Shown here: positions 1 through 53,378 of the stretch, one piece after another
Layout of the letters: each line of letters begins with the position of its first letter
Numbering within the stretch: the stretch's first letter is position 1
Assembly: GCA_019828545.1 (NCBI GenBank)
Contig: JACVRA010000093.1
Location: 9,025 to 73,024, forward strand
DNA: 64,000 nt
Direction: 5' to 3'
Source: Paracamarosporium sp. OC-R06-R3
Taxonomy: Eukaryota; Ascomycota; Dothideomycetes; Pleosporales; Didymosphaeriaceae
Notes under the pieces: model-generated
What the model saw: the letters and a program-made list of their open reading frames with translations, nothing else
The model's database searches: none
What the model was told of the DNA's origin: nothing
Made by a program: the position numbers and the translations under genes

Positions 1-725
1 ATTTTATACTATTATATATAGTATAAACTTTAATAAGAACTTAGTATTATAAGCTACTTACTTATATAAGTTACTTACTTAATAAGTAAGTTAGTTAATT
101 AAGTAAGTTAGTTAAAGTACTAAGACTTTATTAAAATATACTATAGCTATTTATAAAGTCTCTTAAAGTATAATAAGTAATTAGTATAATATACTTTTTA
201 AGTACATTATAGTTTAAATTTTAGTAAAGACTTAGTATTTTTATATATTTACTTATTTTAAACTTTTACTTATTAAATATATTATATATTAATTATTTTA
301 TTTTTTACTCTTTTAAACTAATTTTATTATTTTAAAAAAATTATTTTTTAGTAAAAATTTTTTTTATTTTTTTATTAAGCTATAGTTCTTTAAAGAGAAC
401 CTTCTTTTAATAAAAAACTAATTATATAATATTAAACTTTAATAATTTTAATACTTTTAATTTATTTTTTATTATTTATTTTTTATTACTTATTTATTTT
501 TTTATTATATTATTACTAGTTAATTCTTTATTGGTATCCTATATACTTATAATATTAGGCCTTATAAAATGTAATAAAAATTTATTTTAGTTTTTTAAGG
601 TAAGAATTATTAATAATTTATATTAGAGTTAATTTAAATCTATACTATTAATGTCTTAGTAAAAAATAGTTAAGTACTTAAGTTAACTACTATCTTAAGA
701 TCTTATATAGACTTTAGATTTTAAG
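1..725. repeat. AT-rich RIP-like block
   Basis: This stretch is almost pure A/T with very frequent TpA. Reading 1-720 by eye I find only about four CpA/TpG dinucleotides and no CpG, which is the expected outcome of RIP (CpA to TpA on both strands) acting on repeated DNA in filamentous ascomycetes. Composition changes sharply near 725-740, where ordinary GC-containing sequence begins. No reading frame survives, so the original element, probably a transposon, cannot be named. It runs off the left edge. Confidence 0.85.
73..91. repeat. perfect inverted repeat in AT block
   Basis: ACTTACTTA, a single A, then TAAGTAAGT form a perfect 9-bp inverted repeat. It sits in a longer run of TTAC/TAAG/TTAG tetramers (about 56-116). 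It may be RIP debris or part of a transposon end; nothing more can be said. Confidence 0.4.
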
Positions 726-1873
726 TTATTGCATATGGCGCTCTATCGGCGTGGAGTTGGGGCATGGTTAGTTATATAATAGGGTATTGCGGTATCTCTT
801 CATTACAGCTAAAGGGAACGTATCTAGGCCGTAAGCGTGTTCTTTAGTAGTATCAGCTTCTTCGGCTTTCGCATTGGAGCCGCTGTGAGGGATCTGGCCT
901 GTTTACCTGATTTTTGCCTGCCCATGATGAAATATTTGGTTTTGAAGGCGTGGTGAGGGTACAGCTAAGTATACCTAGGAATGTTCAGCTTGAGACGAGA
1001 GGCATATGGAAGCGGCGGCCCTGGTATTGGGAGCTGGTACATAGCACGACCAGTAGCGCGTTTTAGGACGTTTTAGACAGAAGGATACGGAAGCCTTCGA
1101 CTGGAGAACAGGAAAGCAATGCAATGTTACGTCTTAACGAATAATAGTGGAATATATAAGCGAAACTCCGCAGAAAACGCCTTGCCGCAGTCGGCTTTCG
1201 AAGTAGAACTTAGTCTGAAGGATGCGGACCAATCTGGACGAAATTTAGCAGCAAATCATCTCGAGTTGCAGCACGGAGGACACTTCACCCTAACGGTAAA
1301 GAATAATGCAAAAGACTGGTTGTAATTCTCCCTGTTCAACCTGCGATTCCTGTTTCAAGTGGTAAAAGTATATCCGAGTGATAGAAAGGTGAGCCATCCA
1401 TTACCAGGACGACCGACTCCGGGTGTTGCGAAAGCCATACGTCCCTTAAAAAAGAGCGTATCGTCGCCAATTTCGTTTCTCGAGGAATTGAAAACTAGAG
1501 GCGAGACTAAAGCTATAGGTATCTTGAAGATCATGATCTCTATCAATCCTGTCCTTTTCATGGAGAGGGTAGTATCAGGAGTCGACGGGCTTGAAAAGGT
1601 CAAACATAGAGGACCGGAAGGCACGCTGGACGAGATACTAGCATTACTGGGTCTAAATCACCACGCTTTACCTACTTTACGGGGGAGCGACCTTGGCCCA
1701 GAGAACGATGATGAGATCGTGGGGACTGACAAGTGATGGTTCGTGTCGCTGAACCAAAACAGCTGAAACAGTCTTCATTCAGTCGTGCTGCAAGAGCACG
1801 ATGCGAATGCGCCGAGGCAGGGCTACATAAGCTGCTTCGTGCCGCAGACAGGGCACGTCATTGATACGGACGA
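726..1873. other. gene-poor border zone
   Basis: Normal-composition sequence between the AT block and the first gene. The only sizeable open frame is 1359-1736 (+, 125 codons), but the opposite strand is also open over 1355-1624, codon use is unremarkable and no family is recognisable. I see no supported gene, tRNA or repeat here. Confidence 0.5.
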
Positions 1874-2794
1874 TCAGCAGATGTATGTCGTAATTTCCAG
1901 CTCGACCTATAATTCTTAGCAACACTGCCTATCTTCACGATCACGAAAAGGCCCCACGACTTACCACAACCCCACAATCCTCCCCGATAAACCAAAACTT
2001 TCCATGCTCCTCCGGCTGCCGCCGAAACTTCTCCTGACGCGTACTACCCTCATCGCAAGGCGCCAAGTAACTATGCAGCCCAACATGCTCTAGACTCCCC
2101 GTTTTCTCCGCTCCCTTTCTTCGCTCGACGTCCAATATCCACACCACAGCCAATCGATCTTCCTCCTCGAGACAATCTCGAACAGCCCAGCCCTCTCCGC
2201 CAACCAACTCTTTGGCCGTCTGTGTAAGGCTCTCCTCGATTATTGGAACAGCAAGGACATTCGCTGCTACCGGGTCACAATCGCCATAGTACCGCTCCAT
2301 ATACAGCGGCGTGTACTTGATCTTAACTTTCTCCCAGGACGTCTCCAGATTCTTCAGGAAACTGAAATCAGCAACGTATCCGCTCACCTCCCCGGGCTCC
2401 GACAAATTGGTTCCGTATCCGTTCCAGTAATTCTCGTTGTAACTGTCATCGGAATCGGAAATGTAGTCCGAATCTTCATCTTCATCGCCATCATCGTCGT
2501 TGCCATCACTGTCTTCCCCGCTGCACACTTTAGCCTCGCTCCACACTATGTTTACCATCAATCCGCACTTACTTACAAGTTCACCAAAAACTTTTTCCCA
2601 GAAGCCTCCCAATCCCCAGTACGGTCATACGTCCTAAACAAATGCACATCCAGCTCCAACTCCCTTAATGCGCATCCCTCCAGCGCCACAAGCGCCCTCT
2701 CTATGCCCGCAAAATCCTCTACATAGTTGAACTGCTCTTTGCCCCACGGCACTATGTGTTGATAAGACGAATTAGGGGGTCGCGTTTTACCCAT
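1874..2794 (-). CDS. unrecognised protein with acidic stretch, 3 exons
   Basis: Proposed exons 2794-2577, 2520-1965 and 1906-1874 (268 aa). Intron 2521-2576 has GTAAGT...TGCAG and its removal joins a TTC codon in frame. Intron 1907-1964 has GTAAGT, a GCTAAGA branch site and TATAG, and keeps phase 0. Without the last intron the frame would stop at 1941. Residues after the first junction are strongly Asp/Glu/Ser-rich (GEDSDGNDDDGDEDEDSD); the rest is globular-looking with many Trp and Tyr. I recognise no domain. The 5' end is uncertain: coding-like sequence at 2801-2939, in another frame, can be joined by an intron at 2752-2800 (GTAACA...CATAG), which would replace the first codons. The gene lies between the RIP border and a tRNA on the same strand and may be 5'-truncated. 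Confidence 0.55.
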
Positions 2795-3002
2795 TGTTAC
2801 GCTCAAACTCGTAGCACCTATCCTCGAAAACACTCCTTTTGCTATCCAGTGTCAGGTCGTGAAAAAGGTAATCGCTGCTGCTTTGCACCACATAACAATA
2901 TTCTAGCGTCGCAAGCTGATAGAAATGCTTGAGGTCTTCGGGCAGGACGGTTTGTCAACAGCCAGCAGAGATTCTGGACCTTTTGCCCAAAAATAAAAAG
3001 AA

Positions 3003-3135
3003 CGACACCTGTGAGATTCGAACTCACGCTCCCGAAGGAACGGGCTTAGCAGGCCCGCGCGTTAACCTGATCGCTATTAGTTAAAGTAATACTTTACTAA
3101 TGGATATCTAGTACATACCACTCCGCCAAAGTGCC
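3003..3135 (-). tRNA. tRNA-Ser(GCU) with non-canonical D-loop insert
   Basis: With 3067-3118 removed, the remaining 81 nt fold as a class II tRNA: acceptor GGCACTT/AGGTGTC (7 pairs, two of them G-U), D-stem GCG/CGC with GAGTGGTTAA loop, anticodon arm CGGGC-CTGCTAA-GCCCG (anticodon GCU), variable arm of the serine type, T-arm GTGAG-TTCGAAT-CTCAC, discriminator G. GAGTGGTTAACGCG is the usual Ser D-arm/B-box A sequence, so the insert splits box A after GAGTG. Canonical nuclear tRNA introns lie one base 3' of the anticodon; none is present there. The gene is either functional with an unusual intron or disrupted. Confidence 0.85.
3067..3118 (-). other. 52-nt GT-AG intron-like insert in tRNA D-loop
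   Basis: The insert starts GTATGT and ends GATCAG, has a TTTAACTAAT segment resembling a fungal branch site about 16-20 nt before the 3' end, and its exact removal restores a normal Ser D-loop. It is also self-complementary: ATTAGT+AAAGT pairs with ACTTT+ACTAAT (one bulged A, ATT loop), and CTaGAT near the 5' end pairs with ATCAG near the 3' end. GT-AG ends plus a hairpin resemble introner-like elements described in Dothideomycete protein genes. Whether it is removed from the tRNA is unknown. Confidence 0.7.
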
Positions 3136-4128
3136 TATGCTTCGGATGAGATGTTGCTCATTCATGAATATTCCCAAAAATTTTCGTTACATATACCCAG
3201 GATGTTCCGCATTGCACGCCAAGCTAATAAAATCAGAGTGGGGCTCCTGAGCACTTGGCGAACTGGGCCCAGCGCTTATAATGACACAGTATCGAAAATA
3301 CCCTGCAGTTCGCTCATAGGAAATGCAAAGAACATAGAGAAAGTCATATACCTAACTAACTCTCTGTATAAGCCACACGAGTCCGGCGATAAAGATATGC
3401 TACCCTCTAAATTTGTTCGCAGACTGTTGGCGGAAGAGAAACTGCGCGTTTTAGCAGCTGCCTCCACACCAACTAGTAGGAGCCACCGTACTAGCTCCGG
3501 TCTACGCAGTATAGAGGCGGGTTTCTCCATCTTAGCAATCAACAACTCTCATTTCCAGTTTGTTCAATCATGTGGAAGAGACTATGGAGGGTAAGCCACG
3601 CCGTAGAACTCCTCTACGTCTTCGTGACTTGTATTTAGCAATCTACTTGGGAGGTGCCGTGACATGAGTGTGCCGGGTTACCAATTTATCCAGTTAGTTT
3701 TGACCGAATGCACAAACCCCGTCAACGTTTTGAGCGAATTGACTTCCGCCTCACGATCCCCCCCAAAGTGCCATCGACCAACCTGAAAAGGGGTTATTGG
3801 CTAGTTGTTGAAGATCTTCGGCATTATCATCATATACTGATGATGATGATATTGCACTCTTGCGCGCTGTAAAACAAGCCCTGGTGGACTATGAGGCCGC
3901 ACCAGAGAACGGTAAATGGATTGAGTGGGGATACCTTCAAGGTAGTGGATCCTCCGTCTTTCGGTGCGGAGAAACCATGATGCGGATGTCTTGGCAACCC
4001 ATCCGCGAACCCGCTTCTCGAAGCCTCAACTCAAACGTCTTTCAGTGCCTTTCATTTTCACCTCACGACATAGGCTCTCGCACCAAGTCTCAATTCCTGC
4101 CTTCATTTTTGCTCTTCAGAAACCAAAA
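3136..4128. other. intergenic, no supported gene
   Basis: Open frames here (3151-3594 +, 3276-3545 -) overlap on both strands and look random. A small hairpin-forming repeat (ATCATCA, 5-nt loop, TGATGAT) lies at 3826-3844. The part after about 3860 is probably the promoter and 5' leader of the gene starting at 4129. Confidence 0.5.
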
Positions 4129-7596: not shown

Positions 7597-7702
7597 AGCC
7601 CGACGTGGGGGTCGAACCCACAACCTTGAGATACCGAGTAATCGTGCAGTTAGACCGTGAATACTTAAGAGTCTCACGCTCTACCGATTGAGCTAGCCGG
7701 GC
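7597..7702 (-). tRNA. tRNA-Lys(CUU) with canonical intron
   Basis: The 5' strand GCCCGGCTAGCTCAATCGG and 3' T-arm GTGGG-TTCGACC-CCCAC followed by GTCGGGC form a standard tRNA. The anticodon arm is TGAGA-CTCTTAA...TCTCA with anticodon CUU. About 33 nt are inserted between positions 37 and 38, the normal site cut by the nuclear tRNA splicing endonuclease. Mature length is about 73 nt. Confidence 0.95.
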
Positions 7703-15094: not shown

Positions 15095-16493
15095 TCAAGC
15101 GCCAGCCGCGAAGAAGCTCAAAAAGCTGCCAGCCGTCAATCCAGCAACCAGGCATAGCGACATGAAACCGCCAGCTGCTTCGCGCTCTTCTGGATCGACC
15201 CACTCTACAAAACCCATCATGCAGTTACTGCCAATATATCCGTTTGAGATGCCGAAAAGAAGTTGTACAACGAATAAGTAGAAGAAGTCTGAACCAACGG
15301 TAGCGCCTCTGCCGCCGACGTTGCACAACAAATAGAGGGGTATAAATGCGAGGCGGCATACAGTCAAAGTGAACAACAAGCGAGGACGCGCTGTCAGGGT
15401 TAAGCTTGGGATGCCTGGAATGACTCGCCCGATGAGATCGCCAATGTTCCAAAAGAGGAATCCCAAGGGAATGAAGACGGCGGGTTGGAAGAGGCGAGGA
15501 GAAGTGGCAGGGTCCCGAACGCTCAGGATCTTTTGAGTGAAGACAGGGTAGAACATGGTTATGGCGAAATCGAGAAAGACGGCGCCAGCAAGCCAATATA
15601 GCTTCTGGAGGAGTCTTGTCAAAGGAATTGATTTGTGCGTAGCGGGTCGATATTCGACGGCAACTTCGTCATCGTCGAGCGTCGATCTCACCTGTCCACG
15701 AGAATTCGGTTTAGACAGAAGGTACACAAAGGCAAGAAAGGTGAGGGCGGAAATGATGGTCGCCGTGAGGAAGTAGACGAAGGCAGACTTGCTGGACTCC
15801 TGTGGCGCACCTTCCTGTGTTTGTTTCTGGGAAACTGAAAGGACCGACACAATTTGGGCTATGCAAGGTAGCACGCCAGCAATGCCCTGGCCTGTCATGA
15901 TACCCTGGGTATATTCCTCTCTTCCAAAGCTTGCCACGTAGGCAAACACACCATTCTGACACAGAGCTGTAGCTAGGCTGGCGCTGAAGACGACGAGCAT
16001 GAGGAAAGCGAAGTATACGCCAGCCGAGACGCCCAAGAAGGCTCGGGTGGATATTGCCAACAGGGTGAAGACGACAATGTTGAGCACGAGGGAGGACGTT
16101 ATGCGTTTGGGGTAGGAGGCATGGGCCTGCATCTTGGTGAGGACGATCATGGAGCCCAGACTACCTGCAGTCGATACGGCAAGTTCGGCGGACTGGAAGT
16201 TGCGCAGGAGGCGTTCGTCGGACTCGAAGCGGCGCTGGAAATACGGAGCAGCCGCGAGGAACATGTTCCTGGACCCTGTTAGGACGTGCGTGTTGGAGCC
16301 AGCGAACAAAACCATACCATGCCCATAGCATAGCAACGCCGAGTAGCAGGAAGACATAGTAGTCGAGCCTCGAGTACTCGGGCTGCTCTTCGTCCTGGAT
16401 GCGTTGGCCGTCGGGGCGCTCCGAGCCACCCTCGAGAGGCGCGTACGAGGTTTCGGCGTCGGGGCCCTGGAAAAGGCGGCGGATGAGGCCCAT
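15095..16493 (-). CDS. FUN26: equilibrative nucleoside transporter (ENT family)
   Basis: Exons 16493-16318 and 16268-15095 give 449 aa. The intron (16269-16317, GTATGG...TCCAG) uses the second of two tandem AGs; only this one restores LLGVAMLWAW-NMFLAAAPYF, the ENT TM1 signature with its conserved Trp-Asn. Roughly eleven hydrophobic segments follow, with a long hydrophilic loop after the sixth (KQTQEGAPQESSK), and the C-terminal half carries SNGYIGSNCMMGF, matching the ENT segment in TM9-10. The family exchanges nucleosides and nucleobases across membranes; the yeast ortholog Fun26 is vacuolar. The N-terminus has an acidic cytosolic tail. It is divergently transcribed from the Iwr1 gene. Confidence 0.93.
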
Positions 16494-40169: not shown

Positions 40170-41499
40170 ATGTGTACGGTAATACATTATCGGTTCGACT
40201 GCGGTCATTACATTACACGACACAAATCACGTTGCAGTGGGACCAAAGTCAAAATAACACGGGGCAGCCGAAGAGCTGCATGTTCTGCCAAAGGTTATAT
40301 AACGATCAAGTATGTTTCGCCTTGCAACATGTGTTCAAATGAAGCATGGAATTCCCGCTGGCAGAAAAGACTCGAAAAGGCAAGGGCATTTCTTGAGAGA
40401 CTCATTAAGCAGGATTTATCTGGAGTAGGAGCGATATCTGATTTGACCAAGGAACTTGAACAGCAATATGAGATCGAATCATGGGAACTCAGAAATACCA
40501 TTCCCTACGGCAACAAAGCAAAAGTTCGAAGGGTGGATCCAGCTGAAGTAGAGCAAGGTAAGCTGCGATCATCGCCATTAAGATTCGAAGTGAAACCCGA
40601 GGACGTCGTGATTCCTGTCATGACCGAACCGGTATATGATGACGATGATGATTGGGTGGGGAGTACAGATCCGCTTCATCCCATCAGTACCAACTACGAC
40701 ATCAGTCCTGCTGGTATCGACGACGATTATCTGGAGCTCCTCATCGGAGATGAAGCAGCGACTGTTGCACCCTTTGAATACGATGCGTACAATTCTTCCT
40801 ACACAAGCTCGCATGAGAACAGTGAAGGCATAAATTCTGTGGTAGACTTCAAAACTCAGGATGATAGCCTCAATAGTACGTGATCTAAATTGCTCACCTA
40901 CCAAGAGTTTGCTAACTTTCTTATCAGACAGCGAGTTGAGTATGGGTACGGAACCACTGATAGCTTGGGGTCCTGTAGCAGAAGACAACGTTTCTTTTGG
41001 AGAAGTAAGCATCAACGGCCTGCGAACGGATGAAAAAGTTAAGCAGGAGCAAATTGAAGCAGTCACCAAAGAATTTTGGGAAGTAGTCAACATTGACGAC
41101 GATGACAACCAGGATACACCAACGACTAAAACGATTGAAGACAGGAACATTGCCAACGGTATCTCAGTTCAAACGGGCAGCAATACTGGCTCAACGTCTC
41201 CGGCCTTCCAGTCTAAAAAGACTGATTGCACTTTGGATTCATTGGTAGTTCCTCCATTCAAAACGAGCTGTCTTGGCAAACAGTTGAACAATGGTGAGTC
41301 ACACCGGGTCATACCTCCCAAAGGTAGCTCCACAGATGTAAAGTATGAGGCATTCCGCAAGGCGATTGTTCATCTAAAGGAGAAAGATCCTAGGAAGTAT
41401 TATGAGCAGTGGCTCATAGAGCGCCGATTAGAGATCAAGGATATTGTGGGACCTGAGGGAGCGAGGATCTATGACCCCCCAAGGCAGAAGACGCAGTAA
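40170..41499 (+). CDS. orphan acidic protein with Cys/His N-terminus
   Basis: Exons 40170-40875 and 40928-41499 give 425 aa. The intron is GTACGT, GCTAAC branch, ATCAG, and joins DDSLN to NSELSMG. The first 60 residues carry a compact set of Cys and His: MCTVIHYRFDCGHYITRHKS, then RC, AC and PCNMCSNEAW, which could bind zinc. A helical stretch follows (RWQKRLEKARAFLERLIKQ). The remainder is acidic and Ser/Thr-rich, ending in a conserved-looking helix (KYEAFRKAIVHLKEKDPRKY). I do not recognise the family; similar MCTVIHYRF... starts occur in lineage-specific Pleosporalean proteins as far as I recall. No signal peptide. Confidence 0.75.
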
Positions 41500-52468: not shown

Positions 52469-52833
52469 GATAGATGCAGCACGGGTTGCTATGAAACCTT
52501 GATAAGCTCTTGCCTCGGAACAGATTTAGTACCTTGTATGGCTTACAAGATAAATTGCTGGAGGTGTTGCAACGAAAGTGCTGCAGGTGCGCTTACCTAA
52601 TTGGGCGCCCCGCTCCTGGGCCGCTTAGCGAGAGGTGCCAAGACACACTCAAGATCAATTTTGAACCACAGCCGAACTTCTCACGTCGACGATATCCTGC
52701 GCCAACAGCACCCACCCACACCGACACAGAGCAGGATCGATTTCCGTTCAGTACGTCCTGCACCGTCCGGACACGCGATATTTTGACGTAGCACTCCCTA
52801 ACAACGCTCAGATCGGCACAGCTCGTCCTCAAC
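52469..52833. promoter_or_regulatory. divergent promoter, EFM3 / RPS24
   Basis: 365 bp between the start codons. A ribosomal-protein gene on one side and an elongation-factor modifier on the other share it. No specific factor site was identified. Confidence 0.6.
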
Positions 52834-53378
52834 ATGGCTGATTCCCAGGTCACTCTGCGCACGCGCAAGTTCATCCGCAACCCCCTCCTCGGCCGCCGCC
52901 AGATGGTTGTGTAAGTGCAGGATACCGGTCGCGATGCGGACACAAGGAAGGAAGGTCTAATGGCATGCAGCGACGTCCTCCACCCCAACCGTCCCAACGT
53001 CTCCAAGGACGAACTCCGTGGCAAGCTCGGTGAGCTTTACAAGGCCAAGAAGGACGATGTCTCCGTCTTCGGCTTCAAGACACACTTTGGTGGCGGCAAG
53101 AGCACCGGCTTCGCCCTCATCTACGACAGCCCCGAGGCCATGAAGAAGTTCGAGCCCCACTACAGGCTGGTGCGGTACGGCATGGCCTCCAAGATCGAGA
53201 AGGCCAGCAGGCAGCAGCGTACGTCGCCCTCCCATACCACCGTTCCACGGATATACCCGTCGGGTCAAGGATGTGTTCGACATGTGCTGACACGGAAACA
53301 GGCAAGCAACGCAAGAACAGGTCGAAGGAGTTCCGGGGTACGGCCAAGACCAAGGGTGGCGACAAGAAGAAGAAATAA
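52834..53378 (+). CDS. RPS24: 40S ribosomal protein eS24
   Basis: Exons 52834-52910, 52971-53218 and 53302-53378 give 133 aa. Introns start GTAAGT and GTACGT. The product begins [19 protein letters not shown], continues [20 protein letters not shown] and [20 protein letters not shown], and ends in a lysine-rich tail [13 protein letters not shown]. This is full-length eS24, a small-subunit ribosomal protein. Codon use is strongly biased to C-ending codons, as expected for a highly expressed gene. An upstream frame from 52915 is intron and shadow. Confidence 0.98.

Follow-up and report, generated by a model that had tools for sequence, protein, structure and literature searches.

A tRNA-Ser(GCU) gene of 133 bases (3003-3135, minus strand), located in the 64,000-nucleotide stretch of DNA that was analysed here (the window), carries a real 52-nt insert in its D-loop. 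The signals within this insert, the existence of a second copy and the recovery of other genes interrupted in a similar way make it very probable that we are dealing with a spliceosomal intron of the U2 type, hosted by a working Pol III gene, and that the genome has no fewer than ten tRNA genes of this kind. The introns of tRNAs and those of the spliceosome are taught as separate classes that are handled by separate machines, and no literature on spliceosomal introns in tRNA genes was found within the open-licence text of PubMed Central.

The tRNA-Ser(GCU) gene and its second copy

The gene can be read as two exons and one intron, all on the minus strand: i) exon 1 (3119-3135), which holds the 5' strand of the acceptor stem and the start of the D-arm; ii) a GT-AG intron of 52 nt (3067-3118), inserted between two conserved Gs of the D-loop (G18/G19, numbering inferred); and iii) exon 2 (3003-3066), with the anticodon GCT at 3048-3050. 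The intron starts with the 5' splice site GTATGT (3113-3118), has the branch-site motif ACTAAT 9 nt before its end (3076-3081) and finishes with the 3' splice site CAG (3067-3069). The insert junction can slide from -1 to +2 bases and has GT and AG at its ends at just one setting, and the combination GTRNGT/CTRAY/YAG was matched by 1 in 400,000 composition-preserving shuffles of the insert, for this Ser copy as well as for the other. The exact removal of 3067-3118 yields an 81-nt tRNA with a complete cloverleaf, which ARAGORN calls Ser(GCU) on the joined exons and only after excision, in line with the earlier note, which held that a serine tRNA is restored in this way. Most of the D-arm that results from the joining is also present in the tRNA-Ser(AGA) genes of this genome, which are uninterrupted. 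On the unspliced gene ARAGORN returned a false Pro(CGG) call only, and the Rfam tRNA model gave 32 bits over 3011-3076 only, with a decoy D-arm that is partly made from insert bases.

The Pol III box A TGGCGGAGTGG (3118-3128, minus strand) had been thought to be split by the insert; it is in fact intact across the junction of exon 1 and insert, because the first G of the intron restores it. A pattern match to box B, AGTTCGAATCT, lies at 3014-3024 and a Pol III-type terminator, TTTTTATTTTT, at 2989-2999, directly downstream of the gene and on the same strand. The locus combines the cloverleaf after excision, the promoter boxes and the terminator expected of a functional nuclear tRNA-Ser(GCU) gene. 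The hairpin that had been seen in the insert does not appear to be meaningful, as equally good folds are obtained with 28 of 200 shuffles and the hairpin is not predicted in the second copy. The GC content of window positions 1-4000 is 0.42, as compared to 0.46-0.62 in the rest of the window, and AT-rich tandem repeats are found at 30-515.

A search of the genome (43,091,187 bases, 337 contigs) with the 133-base query recovered two places, the window gene and C327:454751-454884. The search for other Ser(GCU) copies that had been suggested thus produced one more, with a 53-nt insert at the same site, and no intact gene. The exons of the two copies are identical (81/81 bases, exon 1 included) and their flanks are unrelated, while the inserts agree at 38 aligned positions and differ by 13 substitutions and 3 gap columns (Fisher 1.5e-6 for exon against insert); both have kept GTATGTA, TAACTAA and TCAG, the branch-site motif reading ACTAAC in the second copy. 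Unspliced, the second copy received no ARAGORN call. These identical exons and kept signals, together with the eight further genes described below, bear out the description of a tRNA-Ser(GCU) with a spliceosomal-looking D-loop insert (GTATGT, AACTAAT, CAG) from which the analysis departed. An uninterrupted Ser(GCU) gene was not found with a pattern of anticodon loop and T-loop, which had 27 matches in the genome (31 in the reversed control) with the two known copies as the only tRNA-like ones by reading. In seven ORFs of the window 112 of 398 Ser codons are AGY, and therefore tRNA-Ser(GCU) should be needed. Since both Ser(GCU) genes that were found carry the insert and no intact one was found, a pseudogene is unlikely, and so is the idea that the insert kills the gene.

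Nine other interrupted tRNA genes

The total so far is ten interrupted nuclear tRNA genes: Ser(GCU) (twice), Leu(CAA), Trp(CCA), Glu(UUC), Ala(CGC) (twice), Pro(CGG) and His(GUG) (twice). A pattern in which GTRNGT, then AG, then a T-loop come after a D-loop had 8 matches (reversed control 6), 3 of which were tRNAs, namely the two Ser(GCU) genes and the Leu(CAA) gene on contig C306. A second pattern had 40 matches in the genome (reversed control 49). In an excision screen, stretches of 40-90 nt of the form GTRNGT..AG were cut out and the joined remainder was submitted to ARAGORN. For the window, 658 excisions led to calls at the Ser locus only (the correct one and one decoy with the same donor). 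Elsewhere, 187 excisions in 35 of the 37 second-pattern matches that were not already known tRNAs led to one gene, read as Trp(CCA); 948 excisions in 30 box-B loci (the first 30 of 359) led to Glu(UUC) and His(GUG); and 169 excisions in 104 of 117 box-B loci led to calls at six loci, among them the His and Glu genes already found, Pro(CGG) and one of the two Ala(CGC) genes; the calls at the other two, L020 and L186, were judged to be noise. The other Ala(CGC) gene has the donor GTAAGA, outside the pattern of the script, and was recognised by eye; the second filled (insert-bearing) His gene was located via its own box B. After excision all interrupted genes except the second filled His gene were re-run in ARAGORN, the second Ser copy being compared instead.

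In five control runs of 161-167 random excisions each, ARAGORN made calls at 1-4 loci per run, mostly of other isotypes, although the isotype was correct on two occasions (Glu at L032, Ala at L182), and a control with mirrored motifs gave 0 calls in 165. Because random cuts also yield calls, ARAGORN alone constitutes weak proof and the case for introns rests on the identical exons, the empty His site and the branch motif. The least biased sample was obtained with a pattern of box B plus T5 (70 rows, reversed control 2; by count 44 places): 31 of these places hold tRNAs that are uninterrupted apart from anticodon-loop introns (including L239, assigned by reading and against a wrong ARAGORN label), 5 hold genes with an insert (both Ala, Glu, Pro and Leu) and 8 are unreadable or non-tRNA. 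At the places L217 (C54:256700) and L224 (C61:163506) no tRNA could be read, and L214 (C53:686232) has a 3' end and an acceptor that resemble those of a tRNA, while its anticodon arm is interrupted by some 100 nt; a single GT-AG excision did not yield a readable tRNA there. A further box B pattern (37 rows, reversed control 7; other places partly fetched) included the two Ser and the two filled His genes. Contigs C26 and C300 carry dense tRNA clusters and are probably mitochondrial.

The inserts were found at several sites in the tRNA body. The Leu(CAA) gene, the only one found in the genome, has a 48-nt insert (GTAAGT, GACTAAC 9 nt before the end, TAG) at the same D-loop site as Ser(GCU), yet its sequence is unrelated to that of the Ser inserts; 2 in 400,000 shuffles matched GTRNGT/CTRAY/YAG. 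In Trp(CCA), whose isotype was assigned by reading, the insert adjoins the 18/19 site, and ARAGORN reported Trp(CCA) with a misplaced 57-nt intron on the unspliced locus and Leu(CAG) after excision. The anticodon stems of Trp and Leu contain one mismatch each (A-C, T-T). The other inserts lie between D-stem and D-loop in Glu(UUC), where box A is broken, between D-arm and anticodon arm (26/27 region) in both Ala(CGC) genes, inside the anticodon, after C34, in Pro(CGG), and between T-stem and T-loop in both His(GUG) genes. The Pro locus can alternatively be drawn as Thr(CGU) with a single 88-nt anticodon-loop intron; Pro(CGG) is preferred because the body has what we take to be a Pro pattern.

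A third His gene, on C37, is the exact and natural empty site of the filled gene on C317: it equals that gene minus the insert over 86/86 bases, anticodon-loop intron included. The inserts of the two filled His genes differ at 13 of 65 aligned bases and those of the Ala pair at 18 of 47, the latter without a detectable relation beyond the signals, and in both pairs the exon differences are confined to the anticodon-loop introns. Such an anticodon-loop intron is additionally present in eight of the ten interrupted genes (all but the two Ser; that of Trp by reading only), and a single RNA would therefore undergo both kinds of splicing. In the window, an ordinary tRNA-Lys(CTT) with an anticodon-loop intron is located at 7597-7702 (minus strand), and related introns occur in three other Lys(CTT) genes.

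With respect to Pol III signals, the inserts of Ser, Leu and Trp either complete box A or leave it untouched, and those of Ala, Pro and His have box A upstream of them; in His the final AG of the intron restores a box B, and in Trp the first base of box B deviates from the consensus. A T5 run follows 11-41 nt after box B at nine loci (Ser twice, Leu, Glu, Ala twice, Pro and His twice). Run on the unspliced sequences of the ten genes, ARAGORN named the correct isotype once (Trp, with the misplaced intron) and nothing or a wrong isotype nine times. The Rfam tRNA model reached its cut-off in four of them (Pro and both Ala among these) and stayed just below it in two (both filled His), while the remaining four (Glu, Trp, the C327 Ser copy and Leu) were not matched at E up to 0.1.

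Splice signals and known systems

The ten inserts measure 48-67 nt and are all GT-AG, with a GTRNGT donor in nine and GTAAGA in one; GT-AG in 10/10 is not independent evidence, because the searches selected for it. CTRAY, which was used neither in the search patterns nor in the excisions, occurs 8-12 nt before the AG in 10/10 inserts, with a shuffle chance of 1.8-4.0% each (the 8-12 range was set after the data had been seen), and was found at that distance in 20 of the 658 GTRNGT..AG stretches of the window that serve as background. TTTT is absent from all ten precursors, which is unremarkable and not significant since the product of the per-insert rates is about 0.10.

Four mRNA introns of the window were available for comparison. 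Two belong to the gene of ribosomal protein S24e (plus strand): intron 1 at 52751-52811 (GTACGT, CCCTAAC at 9 nt, CAG) and intron 2 at 52911-52970 (GTAAGT, GTCTAAT at 9 nt, CAG); with both taken out, the reading matches Pfam S24e over profile positions 1 to 92. The third, at 16269-16317 (minus strand; GTATGG, TCCTAAC at 9 nt, CAG), belongs to a nucleoside transporter gene, to which four homologues can be aligned on either side of the intron, the aligned parts overlapping by 4 residues at the junction, and the fourth is a probable intron of an unnamed gene at 40876-40927 (plus strand; GTACGT, TGCTAAC at 11 nt, CAG), identified by reading frame only. All are 49-61 nt long and have CTAAC or CTAAT at 9-11 nt and CAG; three are backed by protein homology and one by frame. 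Judged by sequence, the ten tRNA inserts are similar to these mRNA introns in length and motifs, S24e intron 2 and the window Ser(GCU) insert both having CTAAT at 9 nt. De novo coding statistics gave 7 intron candidates in the window and were too strict to help, and a scan of the window for strong-motif introns gave 21, against 17 in the reversed control, hardly better overall. The nucleoside transporter shares 90% identity (78% of the query) with Didymosphaeria variabile, and the YL1 protein is 82% identical to that of Paraconiothyrium brasiliense, which places the fungus among the Pleosporales, close to the Didymosphaeriaceae.

A Pol III product with an mRNA-type intron is already known from the U6 snRNA gene of fission yeast, where the intron is spliced during U6 maturation (PMC10484740). 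U6 is itself a part of the spliceosome, with an intron thought to stem from reverse splicing near catalytic nucleotides, whereas the hosts here are tRNAs. The present genome has two full-length U6 matches that leave no room for an intron. At C302:51797-52187 two U6 matches are found in opposite orientation, one full length and one of 72 bases, with a box-B-like site GGTTCGAGTCC and T runs between them, an arrangement that presumably resembles the downstream B block of yeast U6.

Insertions in the D- or T-arm of eukaryotic tRNA genes are described, in the part of a review that deals with them, as mostly occurring in one of many synonymous genes and as taken to mark pseudogenes, with Cyanidioschyzon and nucleomorphs as exceptions (PMC4090602), and the relevant part of the tRNAscan-SE 2.0 paper has archaeal-model candidates analysed for non-canonical introns (PMC8450103). 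Cyanidioschyzon merolae and the nucleomorphs resemble the present case in having D-/T-arm introns, sometimes next to an anticodon-loop intron (extracts of PMC4090602, PMC3978253 and PMC9602550). The introns of C. merolae, however, depend on bulge-helix-bulge motifs, and in the Guillardia nucleomorph the introns measure 3-24 nt, in contrast to the 48-67 nt with GT, branch motif and AG found here. The canonical 37/38 introns removed by TSEN also exist in this genome, within eight of the ten interrupted genes themselves, and differ from the inserts in site, length and signals. Pattern scans for relatives in public collections had 2, 0 and 0 matches in viral contigs and 7 in genome contigs; all nine were read and none is a tRNA.

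Alternative explanations and implications

It is very unlikely that these genes have been disabled by their inserts, with the tRNAs coming from intact copies at other loci or in DNA that is missing from the assembly. The assembly consists of 337 contigs, uninterrupted copies exist for His and Glu(UUC), and earlier authors have treated D-/T-arm insertions as marks of pseudogenes (PMC4090602, in the part referred to above), but both Ser(GCU) genes and the sole Leu(CAA) gene that were found are interrupted, the exons are identical while the inserts drift and keep their splice signals, and at nine of the loci a T5 run comes after box B. It seems exceedingly improbable that TSEN excises the inserts at unusual sites, in the manner of Cyanidioschyzon and the nucleomorphs. 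The eukaryotic enzyme can cut bulge-helix-bulge structures (same part of PMC4090602), and the nearest approach to one is seen in the first Ser copy, where a setting without GT-AG ends has 3 of 4 pairs in each tested helix; this setting is not kept in the second copy (1 of 4 in the intron helix), and in the three of ten genes examined (both Ser and Leu) the motif with its 4-bp helix and 3-nt bulges reaches at most 3 of the 4 central pairs at any of the four settings. The inserts are moreover not located at position 37/38 (D-loop in Ser, elsewhere in the others, with Pro also drawable as one long anticodon-loop intron), the anticodon-loop introns read by ARAGORN are 6-33 nt in the first tRNA set and up to 40 nt later, as compared to 48-67 nt for the inserts, and the GT, branch motif and AG of all ten, at several sites, would be left unexplained.

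The spliceosome normally acts on Pol II RNA, which would fit tRNA bodies that derive from Pol II transcripts, with the inserts as ordinary mRNA-type introns of longer RNAs. We regard this as highly improbable: T5 follows closely on box B at the nine loci examined, the ORFs of at least 90 aa around three loci have no tRNA overlap, and the introns would be spliceosomal even then. The earlier note suggested that an introner-like element may have landed in a tRNA gene, and such elements do occur in Dothideomycetes, a class of fungi with recently gained spliceosomal introns (PMC4457414, in the passages concerned). This origin is extremely unlikely here, as no repeated family was seen among the inserts: the 52-nt window insert, the sole one searched alone, has only a self match in the genome, where the note had advised to look for it, and among 45 insert pairs clear likeness is confined to the Ser and His paralogue pairs, the Leu-Ala2 pair being borderline (2/200 shuffles). 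In PMC9860276, on introners, no passage on non-coding genes or Pleosporales was found.

For the preferred reading, a spliceosomal intron in a working tRNA gene, the following course of events is proposed. Pol III would start from the intact box A and box B and transcribe through the Ser(GCU) insert, and the spliceosome would then take out the insert by the two-step lariat reaction, before tRNA folding and end trimming or in competition with these; genes that also bear a 37/38 intron would additionally need the TSEN endonuclease. Transcription, removal by the spliceosome, this order of processing and use of the tRNA are inferred. The unknown route of removal that had been considered is not needed, as the known mRNA route, the spliceosome, would suffice.

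Introns removed by the spliceosome probably form a standing second class of tRNA introns in this lineage, which would have arisen more than once and at various positions in the tRNA, an anticodon included, and which would come and go between paralogues, such that some codons, above all the Ser codons AGU and AGC, would be readable only if the spliceosome works. The unspliced genes are mostly missed or mislabelled by ARAGORN and the Rfam tRNA model, which is a warning for annotation, and since the scanners used miss or misread most of them, the class may extend beyond this genome. These genes also offer natural tests: of an uncapped Pol III transcript with a 17-nt 5' exon as a substrate of the spliceosome and, through the filled and empty His genes, of the gain of a new intron. 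The finding of mRNA-type introns in tRNA genes, for some of which no intact copy was found, suggests that the production of some tRNAs in this filamentous fungus depends on the spliceosome, which would therefore be needed to read part of the genetic code.
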